From Bacteroidales bacterium (GTDB lineage Bacteria > Bacteroidota > Bacteroidia > Bacteroidales > Muribaculaceae), in assembly GCA_014800605.1 (NCBI GenBank), contig JAAVFS010000016.1:1-40040 (forward strand): a stretch of 40,040 nucleotides of DNA, given 5' to 3'. The notes under the pieces are model-generated. The model was not told the DNA's origin and did not search any database. It saw only the letters and a program-made list of their open reading frames with translations. Made by a program: the position numbers and the translations under genes. Position 1 is the first letter of the stretch; every line of letters starts with the position of its first letter. Positions 16,606 to 28,642 of this stretch are shown here, piece after piece.

Positions 16606-19143
16606 TTAAATTCCATCTCTCTTGGCATCGCCCCATCTGAATGGATATTCGGGATAGGTCTGACCGGCGGGTGGCGCTTTGTCGATCATTTGGCTACCCC
16701 AATACCATTCATCGTAGACGAAGCGTGCGCGCTGATAGTTGGAGACCGTAGTATTGCGGTTTGTTTGCAGCGATGGAGTCTGGTTGGGATCGCTCTTTCC
16801 GGGTACGACGGCTTCACCTTGGGCGCACCAGTAATACCATGTAGTAGTACCCGAGCGACCAAAGAGGCGCGGAATCTTGTATTGGGCAGACAGGTTGATG
16901 ATGAACTCTACCTCTCCATAGGTCGGAAGGCGCCAGCGTCCGGCCGGATAGCCCATCTCCTGGAAGGCGGCGGCACGCAGGCGAGCTCTGATGAAGTTCA
17001 GACCCGGTCCTGTGCCTGCATAGCTGGAGCAGATACGGAATTTCGGCGCGATCATATACTGTGTGGCTTCTCCGGGCTGAGTAGGATAGTAGTAGCTGAG
17101 AGATCGTGTGCCACCCTCTATAGAGGGCGCATCGACGAATCCGAAACCGCTTGCAACCGTATAAGCATGGTCAAGATACTCGACATTAATATTAGCCGGA
17201 TCCATGCTTGCCGCCTCCAGATTGTTGTTGATCAGCTGTCGGCGCGGGTCGCCGATCTGATACTTCGTGTCGGTCGGGAGAGTTGATATTGTGATGACAT
17301 ACAGATTCGGGTTCCAGTTCAAGTTCCCGTCACTGTTCAGACCGATAGAGGTGGTCCAATATGTAGCAGATGTGTATCCTACCTCGAGGGATTGGCAATT
17401 ATTGTTTACCCAGCAGCTTGCCATAGCGCCGGTGCCTTGAATATGTCCATTTGCGAGTGACTCATAATTATTTGGCGTAGCGTCAATATAGATTGCCGGA
17501 TACTGGGTGACGTAGACGGTCTCCTTCCAGAGGGGCTGTCCCTTCATGTCGGAGTGTTGCACGGTGATCTCGTAGTCTACCTGCGAGAATTCGTCGTCGT
17601 CCAGCTGTACATAGCGTGTGGCCTGAGCGAGTCTCTGCTGGATGACTGCATTGTTCTGAGTCTTTGCACGGGTGGAGGTGGGGCCGTCGCCGTTGGTCAG
17701 AGATATCTCGTTGTTGCCGTTATAGGGCTGATACATCTTCAGGGGGTGCCAAATTCGGAGGAATGAGCTGCCGTTACCCTCCAGCTCGTTGATAAATCGT
17801 GCATTGAACACATTGGTATTTGCATTGCTGAATAGGTCGATGGTCACCGGAAACTTGGATCCTTCATCAGAGTAGTTGAATCGGTAGAAGGTCATCTTTG
17901 CGTCAATGACCTCGGTATTGTGTGAGGTATAGAAGGGAATCTCGAGAGTCGTCTGGTTGTTGAATGTATAGTTTTCCTGTTCGACTACAAGGAAGCGGTA
18001 GTCGGGGATCTCGACATCAAAGCTCTCTGTGCTCCAGTCGGCAGCCGTATAGCTCAGGTCGGGAAGCTCGACCGGCTCGTCGGGCACGAAGCTGCCGAGC
18101 ATTCCGAGATGGATCTTGATGCGATAGGATGTGTTTCTGACGAGCTCGGATGACGAAACGGGGACAACCGGCACCTGATAATAACATGTACGCCAGCTCT
18201 GTCCGCCATCCGAGCTCCAAGGGAGGCTCAGGGTGATGAATGTGCGATGCTCCTCATCGGGCAGGAGTGTCCATGCGTTGGGGTAGGTATAGAATGGGGT
18301 AGCCTGTGTGAGCGGATAGCGCTCGTCGTGGAGGCTGTCGGTGAAGTTGTAGCGCAGGCTGGAGGGGGTGTCGAAGTAGTTGGCCTCGTCGATGGTGCCG
18401 GCTTCGGTGCGGGGAGTGAGGGTGGAGGTATGGACACCGCTGTAGAGGTTGACACGCATAGCGCTCAGGTTGGGCTTCCAGACGAGGGAATCGCCGCCAT
18501 TGGGGTTGGGCTCTTTAAGCTCGGTCTCGCAGTTGACTGACACGGTGATCTTGCACGCAGAGCGGTGGGCGTTGATGGTGCCGGTGGCATAGGTGTGGTT
18601 GGGGTCGACTGTGAGCTGTGCGTCGCCATCCATGGTGAATGATTCCTGCACCTTGTGGGTGGCGAAGTCGGAGGTGACTACGAGCTGCTTCAGATCGGCT
18701 ACGGTCTTGGCATCCCCGGGGTCGACATTGACAGCGACGTAGGCCAGGCAGGGGTTGTTGGCTCCTCCGCTCTCGAAGAGCTGCAGGCGGAGAGCCGGCG
18801 AGAGAGGTACGCGGAGCTTGGCCGACCCGGTGGCCTCGAGATTAGTGAAATTCTCCATATAAACCGGTGGCACGGTCTCGGGTCGATCGCCTCCCTTGGG
18901 CCAGAGGCAGAGCACGACGTTGTTGATGACATTCTCATTGAGGTCGTCGAGTCCAGGCTCGTCGTTGAGGCCGCGGGATGATGGCTTGGCAGCGACGACA
19001 TCGATTGTGATGTAGCCGCGTTCGTTCTCATGTGGGTCGCCGGGCCTCAGAGATTCAGGCTCGTCGGAACAACCGGTGGCGAAAATGCCGACCAGGAGGC
19101 CCAGTAGGGTGTATTTCAGTTTACCTGCAAAAGTGCGTGGCAT
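16606..19143 (-). CDS. Large fimbrial tip-like lipoprotein with C-terminal FISUMP/C-lectin-like region
   Basis: Lipobox LLVGIFATGCSDEP; fimbrillin-like N-terminus (SSRGLNDEPGLDDLNENVINNVVLCLWPKG); C-terminus GRWRLPTYGEVEFIINLSAQY...ARFVYDEWYWG. Confidence 0.7.
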   Translation of the reverse strand: MPRTFAGKLKYTLLGLLVGIFATGCSDEPESLRPGDPHENERGYITIDVVAAKPSSRGLNDEPGLDDLNENVINNVVLCLWPKGGDRPETVPPVYMENFTNLEATGSAKLRVPLSPALRLQLFESGGANNPCLAYVAVNVDPGDAKTVADLKQLVVTSDFATHKVQESFTMDGDAQLTVDPNHTYATGTINAHRSACKITVSVNCETELKEPNPNGGDSLVWKPNLSAMRVNLYSGVHTSTLTPRTEAGTIDEANYFDTPSSLRYNFTDSLHDERYPLTQATPFYTYPNAWTLLPDEEHRTFITLSLPWSSDGGQSWRTCYYQVPVVPVSSSELVRNTSYRIKIHLGMLGSFVPDEPVELPDLSYTAADWSTESFDVEIPDYRFLVVEQENYTFNNQTTLEIPFYTSHNTEVIDAKMTFYRFNYSDEGSKFPVTIDLFSNANTNVFNARFINELEGNGSSFLRIWHPLKMYQPYNGNNEISLTNGDGPTSTRAKTQNNAVIQQRLAQATRYVQLDDDEFSQVDYEITVQHSDMKGQPLWKETVYVTQYPAIYIDATPNNYESLANGHIQGTGAMASCWVNNNCQSLEVGYTSATYWTTSIGLNSDGNLNWNPNLYVITISTLPTDTKYQIGDPRRQLINNNLEAASMDPANINVEYLDHAYTVASGFGFVDAPSIEGGTRSLSYYYPTQPGEATQYMIAPKFRICSSYAGTGPGLNFIRARLRAAAFQEMGYPAGRWRLPTYGEVEFIINLSAQYKIPRLFGRSGTTTWYYWCAQGEAVVPGKSDPNQTPSLQTNRNTTVSNYQRARFVYDEWYWGSQMIDKAPPAGQTYPEYPFRWGDAKRDGI

Positions 19144-19149
19144 ATAGAA

Positions 19150-19348
19150 TAAGTAACTGTTGATAATTAAACGATATTAAGTGCAAAGTAGCTGTCAATT
19201 TTAATCTTTCATACTATCTATGGCTGTAAATTGGTCTATATCAAAATAGTAATCGGTCATGAAGCTCGCTTCACTCCCTCTTCATCTTTTGATATATCCT
19301 CAATTTCCATCTCATATATAGTATAAATTATTTTTCAACAGTTACTTA
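19150..19348. repeat. 199-bp intergenic element bounded by perfect 14-bp inverted repeats
   Basis: TAAGTAACTGTTGA (19150-19163) and its exact reverse complement TCAACAGTTACTTA (19335-19348). An 8-bp direct repeat TAGAATAA occurs at 19145-19152 and 19347-19354. Confidence 0.85.
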
Positions 19349-19401
19349 GAATAAATGATTTATAATGAGTGGTTCTGATAAGAGAGTGGCTGAGGGTGGG
19401 G

Positions 19402-20991
19402 TTACTGCGGGTTCTGGATGATGGTCAGATACTCATTGCGGCCGTAACGGGCCGGGTTGAGGATGTTGACCGGAACAGTGGCGCCACCCGGGAGTGTCGC
19501 TGTGACCTGCAGTCGGGCTGTGCGCTGCTGATTGCCGGGAGGCAGCACGTTGACAATGAATACATTGTTGAGTTTGTTGCCCATCGAACCGGAGATGTGG
19601 GTCGAGTATGTATAGGAGCCTGTCGAGGGGTCGATAGAGCGGAACTGGATCGCATCCTGATCGCCATCGGTCGTGATGAGATATGCATCCCAGGTAGCAC
19701 CTACGGGAGTCGAGATGCCGAATGTGCTTCGGGCGGGCTGGTCGCTGTCGAGCACAAGGCGTGCTGTCGTGTAATCAAGGCTCGTGTAGGTGTTGGGGAC
19801 AAATGTCAGGTAGCCGTCCTGGGCTATACTGATCTGTGTCGAGTAGTCGTATTCGTACTCCTCGGAGTTCCAGGGGAGGACGTTGACATCCACGAGCATG
19901 ACATGGTTATTGCCGATAGTGATATCGACCACTACGTGCGTATTGCGCGGGAACAGGTCGAGATTAGGGAGTTTGACGGGTGTCGAGAAGTTTCCGTCGG
20001 CGGTGTGTATGCGGATGTTGAAGCCATCGGTCGGCGGAGTCACGCTCTCGGGGAGGTAGATCTTGGGCGAATAGGTGAGCACCTGATCGTCGATCAGCTC
20101 GTCGGGGCGGAAGGGGTAGGGGAGGTTGTAGACAAATGTCGACACAAGGTTATTGACGGTCGGGACGGTGAAGGAGGTGATGTCGCGGCCTTCATACTCA
20201 TTGTCGCTCGGGACTCCTTTGGCGGGCGAGTAGACAGTGTTGCGCGGGATTATGAATGAGCTGGCACCGATGAAGTCGATGCCGATACCATCGATGGCGG
20301 CGTTGCTTGCTCCGGTGAAGTCGGCTGACTTGTGGAAACGGAATGAGAATTTGGAGACGGCGCGGGTGATGAACAGTCGGGCTGACTGATTTCGGTCTTC
20401 GGGGGTGGCGGGCTGACGCACATTGACCTCCCATCGCTCGCTCATCGGGACGCGGAGAGAGTTTTCGCCCCGGGTCCAGTCGTAGATGGGGGCTGTGCCG
20501 GAGCGGGAGAGTGTGCCGTTGTCGACCGAGGTGGGGAGGACGGTGCGCACCGACGCTGCTGTGAGAGTCGACACGTAGGCTTCGGGCATTGAGCTTTCAT
20601 TGCCGAAGAGATAGATGTATTTATCGCCGGCGGTGACTTTGAATGTCAGATTGTCGTTGAGGGGATATCCCTGGTCGTTGAGTGTGACCTGACGGTTGGC
20701 CTCGACGCGGCGGTCGGCCTTGGAGACGATTATCACACGCAGTGTACGGAGCTTCTCGCAGTCGAGCTCGGGGAGTTCGAAGTCGCCTGCACGGGAGAAG
20801 CGATGGTTTCCTCCACGCGAATTGAGTACATCGACATCGAGTGTGAGGAAGATATCGGGTGATTTCATGTCTGTATCTGCGCCCGTGTCTGCGTCGAGAC
20901 CCGGATCGCACGATGACTCGCTACAGGCACATAGCCCGGCTATCATCGCCATGGCGATGAGATAACGTGATATGTAGCGGAATATGATCAT
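19402..20991 (-). CDS. Fimbrial minor-subunit lipoprotein (Mfa2/FimB-like accessory)
   Basis: Lipobox AMAMIAGLCACSES; NSRGGNHRFSRAGDFELPELDCEKLRTLRVIIVSK and VDVNVLPWNSEEYEYDY are typical of Bacteroidetes fimbrillin-family subunits. Confidence 0.72.
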   Translation of the reverse strand: MIIFRYISRYLIAMAMIAGLCACSESSCDPGLDADTGADTDMKSPDIFLTLDVDVLNSRGGNHRFSRAGDFELPELDCEKLRTLRVIIVSKADRRVEANRQVTLNDQGYPLNDNLTFKVTAGDKYIYLFGNESSMPEAYVSTLTAASVRTVLPTSVDNGTLSRSGTAPIYDWTRGENSLRVPMSERWEVNVRQPATPEDRNQSARLFITRAVSKFSFRFHKSADFTGASNAAIDGIGIDFIGASSFIIPRNTVYSPAKGVPSDNEYEGRDITSFTVPTVNNLVSTFVYNLPYPFRPDELIDDQVLTYSPKIYLPESVTPPTDGFNIRIHTADGNFSTPVKLPNLDLFPRNTHVVVDITIGNNHVMLVDVNVLPWNSEEYEYDYSTQISIAQDGYLTFVPNTYTSLDYTTARLVLDSDQPARSTFGISTPVGATWDAYLITTDGDQDAIQFRSIDPSTGSYTYSTHISGSMGNKLNNVFIVNVLPPGNQQRTARLQVTATLPGGATVPVNILNPARYGRNEYLTIIQNPQ

Positions 20992-27505: not shown

Positions 27506-28642
27506 ATGATACCTGACCGTCCGCTCGACATACTCCTCGTAGGCGATGCAAGCAGCTACCACCCGACGCTTGCCGACGCCCTCCGAGGCCTTGGCCACCA
27601 CGTCACCGTGGCGTCAGACGGATGCATCAGCTGGATGCAGACCCGCCGCGAGATCAACACCGCCCGCCGCCTGCCGGGTAAGCTCGGCGGCCTCGACCTA
27701 TGGATGCGACTTGGGCTCAACCGGAAGCGACTCTTCTCGGGCTACGACATAGTCAGCCTCGCCTCGCAGGATTTCGTTCCGCTTCGCCCGTCGAGGGTAA
27801 GGACATTCTTCGACCGGCTCAAGGCCGACAACAGGTCAATCTTCTACACGGCCCTCGGCACCGACTGGCGCTTCACACAGGAGTGTCTCGACCCGGCTAC
27901 CCCGCTGGTCGAAAATGAGTTTATGGTCCGCGGCGAGCCGACCCCGTTCTACCGCGCAGACCGGGCGGAAGTGAACCTCTGGACGCAGGGCGAGCTGCTC
28001 GACACAGGGCAGCATATCTACGCCAATGTCGATGGCGCCGTATCGGCCCTATGGGAGTATGACGTTGCTATCCGACGCTACTTCGCTTCCGACCGCATGG
28101 CCTACGGCGGCATACCGATCGACACCCGGAAGGTCGCCTATCAGGATCTGCCCGAGCGTCCGGATCGCGTGCGCCTGTTCCTCGGCCGGCATCGCCACCA
28201 CATGATGCTAAAGGGGACCGACAAGCTTGAAGCCGCGGCACGCGCCGTAGTCGCGCGCCACCCCGACAAGGCTGAGCTCGTCATCGTCGAGAATCGCCCC
28301 TACGATGAGTATCTCCGCCTGCTCGAGAGCGCGCATGTCGTGCTCGATCAGATATATAGCTACACGCCGGCCACCAACGCTATGCTGGCTATGGCGATGG
28401 GAAAGGTGGCCGTCAGCGGTGGCGCCGAGTGTTTCTATCGGTTTATCGGCGAGGAGGAGATGCGCCCCGTGCTCCATATCGACTCCGACTACGAATCAAT
28501 AGAGCGCGCCTTGGAGTGGGCCGTCACCCATCCCGAGCAGCTGCGCGAGCGGGGCAGGGAGGGGCGCCGATTTGTAGAGAAGCATAACGACAGTCGCGTC
28601 GTGGCACGCCGATTCCTCGACTTCTGGACCTCACGGCTATGA
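27506..28642 (+). CDS. Glycosyltransferase (GT4-like)
   Basis: N-terminal DILLVGDASSYHPTLADALRGLGHHVTVASDG; C-terminal donor-domain-like YDEYLRLLESAHVVLDQIYSYTPATNAMLAMAMGKVAVSGG. Confidence 0.7.
   Translation: MIPDRPLDILLVGDASSYHPTLADALRGLGHHVTVASDGCISWMQTRREINTARRLPGKLGGLDLWMRLGLNRKRLFSGYDIVSLASQDFVPLRPSRVRTFFDRLKADNRSIFYTALGTDWRFTQECLDPATPLVENEFMVRGEPTPFYRADRAEVNLWTQGELLDTGQHIYANVDGAVSALWEYDVAIRRYFASDRMAYGGIPIDTRKVAYQDLPERPDRVRLFLGRHRHHMMLKGTDKLEAAARAVVARHPDKAELVIVENRPYDEYLRLLESAHVVLDQIYSYTPATNAMLAMAMGKVAVSGGAECFYRFIGEEEMRPVLHIDSDYESIERALEWAVTHPEQLRERGREGRRFVEKHNDSRVVARRFLDFWTSRL

Follow-up and report, generated by a model that had tools for sequence, protein, structure and literature searches.

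RUP is a small intergenic repeat with TA termini and terminal inverted repeats (TIRs) matching those of IS630-Spn1, for which mobilisation in trans has been proposed, and it carries no other signature of structure or function (PMC2229807). The ERIC/IRU and Correia/NEMIS elements, of about 100-200 bp, also have TIRs and TA termini and form long stem-loops in transcripts; some elements of this type act on neighbouring mRNAs via RNase E or RNase III (PMC2229807, PMC10969869). In Porphyromonas gingivalis, the TIRs of MITE239, MITE464/MITEPgRS, MITE700 and BrickBuilt (GAGACTGTTGCA, ACGTGAGTTCGA and similar) match IS5-family ISPg elements (PMC4596501). The element described here lies in a fimbrial locus of a Muribaculaceae genome, within a window of 40,040 nt (the whole stretch of DNA that was analysed). 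It resembles RUP and IS630-Spn1 in its TA termini, its IS630-matching TIRs and its intergenic position (PMC2229807). Taken as a whole, the data almost certainly describe an IS630-type, TA-targeting MITE that inserted before a fimD-like gene, that has a conserved hairpin as its interior and that is predicted to lower translation of this gene.

A dispersed MITE at the fimbrial locus

The MITE spans positions 19150-19348 on the minus strand (orientation R, which for the fimD-like gene of the window is the sense orientation) and measures 199 bp including the TA at each end. Downstream of it, the gene at 16606-19143 (minus strand) encodes a FimD-type fimbrial tip adhesin (NCBIfam NF052322 FimD_tip_adhes, E 2.4e-106, over the cut-off) with a lipoprotein-like N-terminus (translation MPRTFAGKLKYTLLGLLVGIFATGCSDEP). 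The upstream gene of the fimbrial run, at 19402-20991 and also on the minus strand, showed weak Mfa1-family similarity (NCBIfam NF038041, E 1.3e-8), its 34.5 bits lying below the cut-off of 130. The run in which the fimD-like gene sits includes Mfa1- and Mfa2-like genes.

An earlier note, made from the sequence alone, had reported an exact 14-bp inverted repeat at the borders of the element, and inspection of the window sequence bore this out: TAAGTAACTGTTGA at 19150-19163 and its reverse complement at 19335-19348 enclose 171 bp. Except for one hairpin where the contig ends, no other exact 14-bp inverted repeat spanning up to 300 bp occurs in the window, and none was found in 30 windows simulated with equal dinucleotide composition. 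A 21-bp extended TIR pattern matched the window at these two ends alone (chance expectation 0), and the likeness of the two ends reached about 31 bp, beyond the exact part, giving TIRs at 19150-19180 (plus strand) and 19318-19348 (minus strand). No ORF of 100 aa is contained in the 199 bp, and thus the element has no capacity to encode a transposase. Two other features of the window were recorded. The hairpin at the contig end (39992-40036) is terminator-like, its two perfectly matching arms of about 22 bp (AATAAAGCGGATCTTCCTTGAC/GTCAAGGAAGATCCGCTTTATT) being separated by a short loop, and a 378-aa ORF at 27506-28642, with no Pfam match at E 1e-5, adjoins a glycosyltransferase-like gene.

The reading of this element as a MITE, one of those offered in the earlier note, predicts dispersed copies in the host and its relatives as well as empty sites, and both were found. 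Besides one copy at 67%, the genome of the window contained more copies with the same ends at 95-98% identity, several of them truncated by contig ends. Of the eight genomes compared within the genus, G001, G002 and G005 had long copies with 74-88% identity. The TIR pattern was detected in 54 of 397 genomes of the family, covering 12 of 30 genera, while no match was listed for a reversed control pattern. The copies bounded by TIRs span 37-211 bp, the majority 165-211 bp, and the variant of the end sequence tends to be genome-specific and common to both ends of a copy. Altogether, 91 distinct copies were assembled from the genome of the window and its relatives. Searches of phages and plasmids and an exact-pattern scan of viral contigs gave no match to the element.

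Several observations accompany this survey. Elements of 37 bp, consisting of two fused TIRs with almost no interior, were seen at L079 (1501-1537 and 2202-2238), L107 (7093-7129) and L108 (11510-11546; G037), the two in L079 lying on either side of one gene (1605-2180). The record G400 (L119/L128), titled Bacillota bacterium NALB_7861_17, gave 76 matches to the TIR pattern and 15 to the interior module described below; carrying a Bacteroidales TIR pattern under a Bacillota name, it is probably mislabelled or a mixed bin. An AT-rich Flavobacteriaceae MAG presented one exact 21-bp TIR match (L125, 6623-6643) with no convincing second end, which may be due to chance.

Empty sites were searched across the genus with the flanks of eight copies joined minus the element. 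The single orthologue of the window locus that was detected, in G004 (73% identity over 321 bp), lacked the element, and alignments also revealed empty orthologous sites for copies L005, L047, L044 and L049, that of L040 being less clear. The clearest case was a site between two genes that, from our own reading of the translated flanks, we take to be pyrH and frr. G005 has the filled site, CTCGTATAT-TA[AGTAAC...GTTACT]TA-AATTGATT, and G002 has the empty one, CTCGTATAT-TA-ATACTGATT, with a single TA. In addition, 81 of the 91 copies had TA at both ends and only 6 had a 2-bp repeat immediately outside, which is about the 1-in-16 chance level. Since the empty site holds a single TA and 2-bp repeats outside the element are not in excess, TA is the target duplication, represented in the window by 19150-19151 and 19347-19348. 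The earlier note had considered TAGAATAA, found at 19145-19152 and at 19347-19354, as the target-site duplication. This proposal was rejected, because only TA is duplicated and the remaining bases match by chance; the repeat looks longer because GAA happens to stand on both sides of the window locus. A chance origin of the inverted repeat itself is ruled against by the simulated windows, the dispersed copies and the empty sites. The element is securely a MITE, neither a phase switch nor a chance repeat, and its origin is mobile.

The genomic context was read from long ORFs around about 50 copies with enough flank. The element lay between co-directional ORFs in 32 rows, divergent ORFs in 12 and convergent ORFs in 5, a few rows being alternative ends of one copy, and it was never within an ORF. 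Some insertions were located at or within a stop codon, such as those of L047 (about 1498-1503) and L049 (about 1501-1503); as the element starts with TAA, a stop codon is regained when a TAA or TAG codon is interrupted at its TA.

A DDE_3 domain search of the genome of the window identified an IS of 1123 bp including the TA at each end. It was present on two contigs whose flanks had an equal end-match pattern, so that it may be one locus assembled twice. Its first frame (orfA) contains HTH domains and its second (orfB) a DDE domain (PF13358, E 1e-30), and the IS630 model NF033545 fitted both frames, exceeding its cut-off for orfB. When one 31-bp end of this IS was slid along both strands of the window, the best sites were the right and left ends of the MITE (26/31 and 23/31, respectively); the other IS end gave the same two sites (25/31 and 22/31), and the next-best site in the window reached 19/31. 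Related ISs of other genomes had ends of like form (TAAGTA..T...AAAATTA). The presence of an IS630-family IS whose 31-bp ends match both ends of the MITE makes mobilisation in trans by an IS630-type transposase the most likely route on sequence grounds, and the finding of this relative adds to the copies, empty sites and TA duplication that uphold the MITE reading. Positions 7-13 of the MITE TIR differ from the TIR of this IS; as the ends are not identical, the true partner may be another IS missing from the assembly, which is fragmented (135 contigs, 85% complete). A search for an autonomous IS through TIR pairs in 20 genome stretches yielded MITE-sized pairs only. In L113 (971-2001), the coding sequence of an IS630-type transposase is split between two frames that meet at six consecutive T (GGCTTTTTTATCC), a possible frameshift site. 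The proposed course of events is that an IS630-type transposase, from an IS of about 1.1 kb, would move the non-autonomous MITE through the matching ends of about 31 bp, and that the MITE would have inserted at a TA in the gap between the two co-directional genes of the fimbrial cluster. It now ends 6 nt ahead of the fimD-like start codon, instead of the 7 nt given previously, the tip gene and its upstream neighbour both being on the minus strand.

A covarying hairpin in the interior

The interior of the MITE does not resemble a deletion remnant of the IS; it is a conserved hairpin module that MITEs with several other types of ends carry as well. This module of about 104 nt lies at 19216-19319 on the minus strand and contains covarying pairs. 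A covariance model trained on IS630-type copies alone, the window copy among them, matched it with 104.6 bits (E 2e-22). Compared with shuffles, folding of the element gave z-scores of -10 as RNA and -8 as DNA. Across 27 aligned copies, changes on both sides were observed in 38 of 59 pairs, and 95.3% of the cells were paired versus 76.2% in shuffled alignments and 39-48% when the partner was slid.

The apex was the most conserved part, with the order GAAGARGGAG, stem, tetraloop, stem and YGACYGATGA. It comprises the tetraloop, six Watson-Crick pairs and, beyond these, as many as three tandem G·A/A·G steps, and its antiparallel strands (G·A A·G A-U G·A A·G R-Y G-C G·A A·G G-Y) make a continuous helix in which the tandem pairs may be of the sheared type. 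In the window, the apex occupies 19250-19283 on the minus strand and consists of GAAGAGGGAG (19283-19274), the hairpin TGAAGC GA GCTTCA (19273-19260) and TGACCGATTA (19259-19250). Two of its three tandem steps are intact and part of one has been lost.

The same features were followed in 72 module matches, whatever the type of their ends. Of these, 66 retained two or more tandem G·A steps and 49 retained three or more. Paired cells amounted to 94.0% versus 66.0% after shuffling, a figure inflated by the fitting of this alignment to the covariance model, and double changes numbered 581 versus 158. Moreover, G·T cells outnumbered A·C cells (109 versus 27), which fits strand R, rather than both strands equally, as the folded one. 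Common descent of the sequences means that the shuffle controls and the G·T/A·C comparison both exaggerate significance, and the formal p-value of the latter is too small. The interior covaries, with apparent constraint on the folded form of one strand. No credible match was found among the Rfam covariance models, which gave one chance match of 24.5 bits. Two other candidates were discarded. A relic of a transposase ORF (MTDYYFDIDQFTAIDSMKD-like frames) was rejected since related copies lack the ATG, as is the case for the small reading frame of the G000 copies in G005, and since the changes track base pairing. A hammerhead core (CTGATGA, GAA) was rejected because its U is often C and pairs with R of the opposite strand, and the single hairpin between both motifs also speaks against it.

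The covariance model matched 117 of 198 genomes of the family, in 20 of 30 genera, with up to 80 copies per genome (80 in G158 and 79 in G095); Palleniella intestinalis was also matched. None of 298 other Bacteroidota genomes had the module, the genome of the window being the only one of 299 across the phylum with a match at E 1e-6, which shows the specificity of the model and a narrow range, few of the listed genomes being of the same order. In G007, a genome of the same genus, matches restricted to the apex fell inside MITEs of about 206 bp with other ends (GAGTATGTTTGAAATTAA). These MITEs scored 77-83 bits (E 3e-17 or lower) with the model built from IS630-type copies only. The copies ending in GAGTRTG, from G007 and two other loci, were flanked by a TNA duplication that was equal on both sides in 8 of 8 cases. 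A 3-bp TNA duplication and ends beginning with GAG are as in IS5/IS1031-type MITEs, and we provisionally assign these copies to that group. The types of ends around the module include TAAGT..., GAGTRTGTTT, GAGGRTGTTTAATAA, GAAGT.RTTTAAACTT, AACTGATTTAAACTTTTTAT, TTAAGGGATGTCC and others, the type being uncertain for matches with a short or nested best inverted repeat. The MITE reading of the earlier note was therefore upheld but extended beyond what the sequence alone had offered, as the interior is a conserved covarying hairpin common to MITEs with different ends. Inverted pairs of modules about 55-85 bp apart, with a BIME-like arrangement, were also noticed in G014 (C11:333484-333753, C11:686591-686860 and C13:51353-51622), as was another inverted pair in L138 (1008-1301; G095) adjoining an IS630 copy.

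The recurrence of the module in MITEs with quite different ends points to preservation of the fold as such. We tentatively propose that the hairpin of about 104 nt with its G·A steps could be a transferable RNA or single-stranded DNA fold, kept by selection, joined to unrelated IS ends and spread by different transposases across one family, whether as a selfish fold or as one of use to the host. One old MITE lineage whose ends have drifted, instead of modular exchange between transposon families, is a somewhat doubtful but serious reading of the same data. The nearly constant offset between the module and the left end (26-33 nt in most copies) speaks for it, as does some inner end sequence that looks similar between types. 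The target duplications nevertheless differ, TA versus TNA in the 8 cases mentioned, which implies different transposases, and many of the end types have no obvious sequence in common.

A mere palindrome, in which strand-switching in replication produced the covariation and no fold was selected, is an unlikely explanation. Near-perfect palindromic copies (L095, L091 and L080) are what template switching predicts, and such correction could lie behind part of the covariation. However, it would erase the G·A mismatches, and these persist in the proportions given above (66 and 49 of the 72 matches) among copies with unrelated ends. Neither would a strand-symmetric process give the large excess of G·T over A·C.

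Predicted effect on the fimD-like gene

The leader of the fimD-like gene was folded with and without the element. The cost of opening the start region (-20 to +13) rose from 4.4 kcal/mol without the element to 15.0 kcal/mol with it, and the natural empty relative gave 6.3 kcal/mol; these are predictions for isolated RNA, without ribosomes arriving from the upstream gene. By these values, the element would hinder opening of the start region. The earlier note had suggested that the two arms could pair in the mRNA and sequester the region of ribosome binding. This RNA-level reading is plausible and gains the calculated opening cost, while remaining a prediction. In the fimD mRNA, a long stem formed by the element would stand next to the start codon and is predicted to lower translation initiation, and this stem might also be a site for a double-strand RNase. 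Any effect on fimD is deduced from these folding models. Scans for promoters and terminators detected nothing above chance.

An element domesticated from a MITE and selected by the host as an RNA regulator in the leader of the tip gene would be a stronger claim, and we consider it improbable. Its placement 6 nt ahead of the start codon, the orientation that puts the conserved fold on the mRNA and the predicted rise of about 10 kcal/mol in opening cost are in its favour. Nonetheless, the window copy differs very little from unrelated copies at other sites of the genome, and it consequently looks recent and not locally tuned. Furthermore, the one orthologous locus found lacks the element, and one G·A step of the window copy is no longer complete. 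Among co-directional copies with readable orientation, strand R was sense in 14 and antisense in 8; all copies taken together, there is no clear bias in orientation, and a general role in the control of host genes is not indicated. Finally, a phase switch of the surface locus, that is, an invertible promoter with a site-specific recombinase acting at the inverted repeats, is highly improbable despite the repeats, the plausible size and the location immediately upstream of the fimbrial tip gene, because TAnnTTTG is absent from both strands of 18900-19700 (confirming the earlier failure to find a Bacteroides promoter), there is a single sigma-70-like site, fewer than the shuffles have on average, no recombinase domain was found in the 28 window proteins scanned, and the repeats belong, as TIRs, to a dispersed transposon that the orthologous site lacks.

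Comparison with known systems

The element is an ordinary MITE by its ends and unusual by its interior. A MITE before a fimbrial gene is not in itself out of the ordinary; what is unusual is the conserved interior, with its covariation and recurrent non-Watson-Crick motif, and its association with several types of transposon ends. Our search of the open-access literature gave no published description of the element family or of the module. If confirmed, the module would offer a testable example of selection on a folded cargo in MITEs and would be relevant to the question of why long hairpins are so common among bacterial MITEs. The annotation of these gut Bacteroidales would further gain from it a structured repeat not listed before, with no Rfam match and up to 80 copies per genome.

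RUP, with 107 bp and a 9-bp TIR, is shorter than the present MITE (199 bp and ends of about 31 bp), and the likeness between them is one of description. Unlike RUP, the present MITE contains a covarying module that is found with other ends too (PMC2229807). The P. gingivalis MITEs, compared by their ends, come from the same order, Bacteroidales, but have IS5-type ends where those studied here are of the IS630 type. ERIC/IRU and Correia/NEMIS resemble the present MITE in form, although they belong to other bacterial groups and have other TIR sequences. To our knowledge, there is no report of ERIC or Correia interiors common to MITEs with unrelated ends. The REP/BIME palindromes, associated with RAYT transposases, are likewise high-copy, extragenic and imperfect, and sometimes occur as inverted pairs, as seen here in G014 and G095. 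In contrast to REP/BIME, whose palindromes measure 20-40 bp, the present hairpins reside within TIR-bounded elements of 37-250 bp that carry target duplications.
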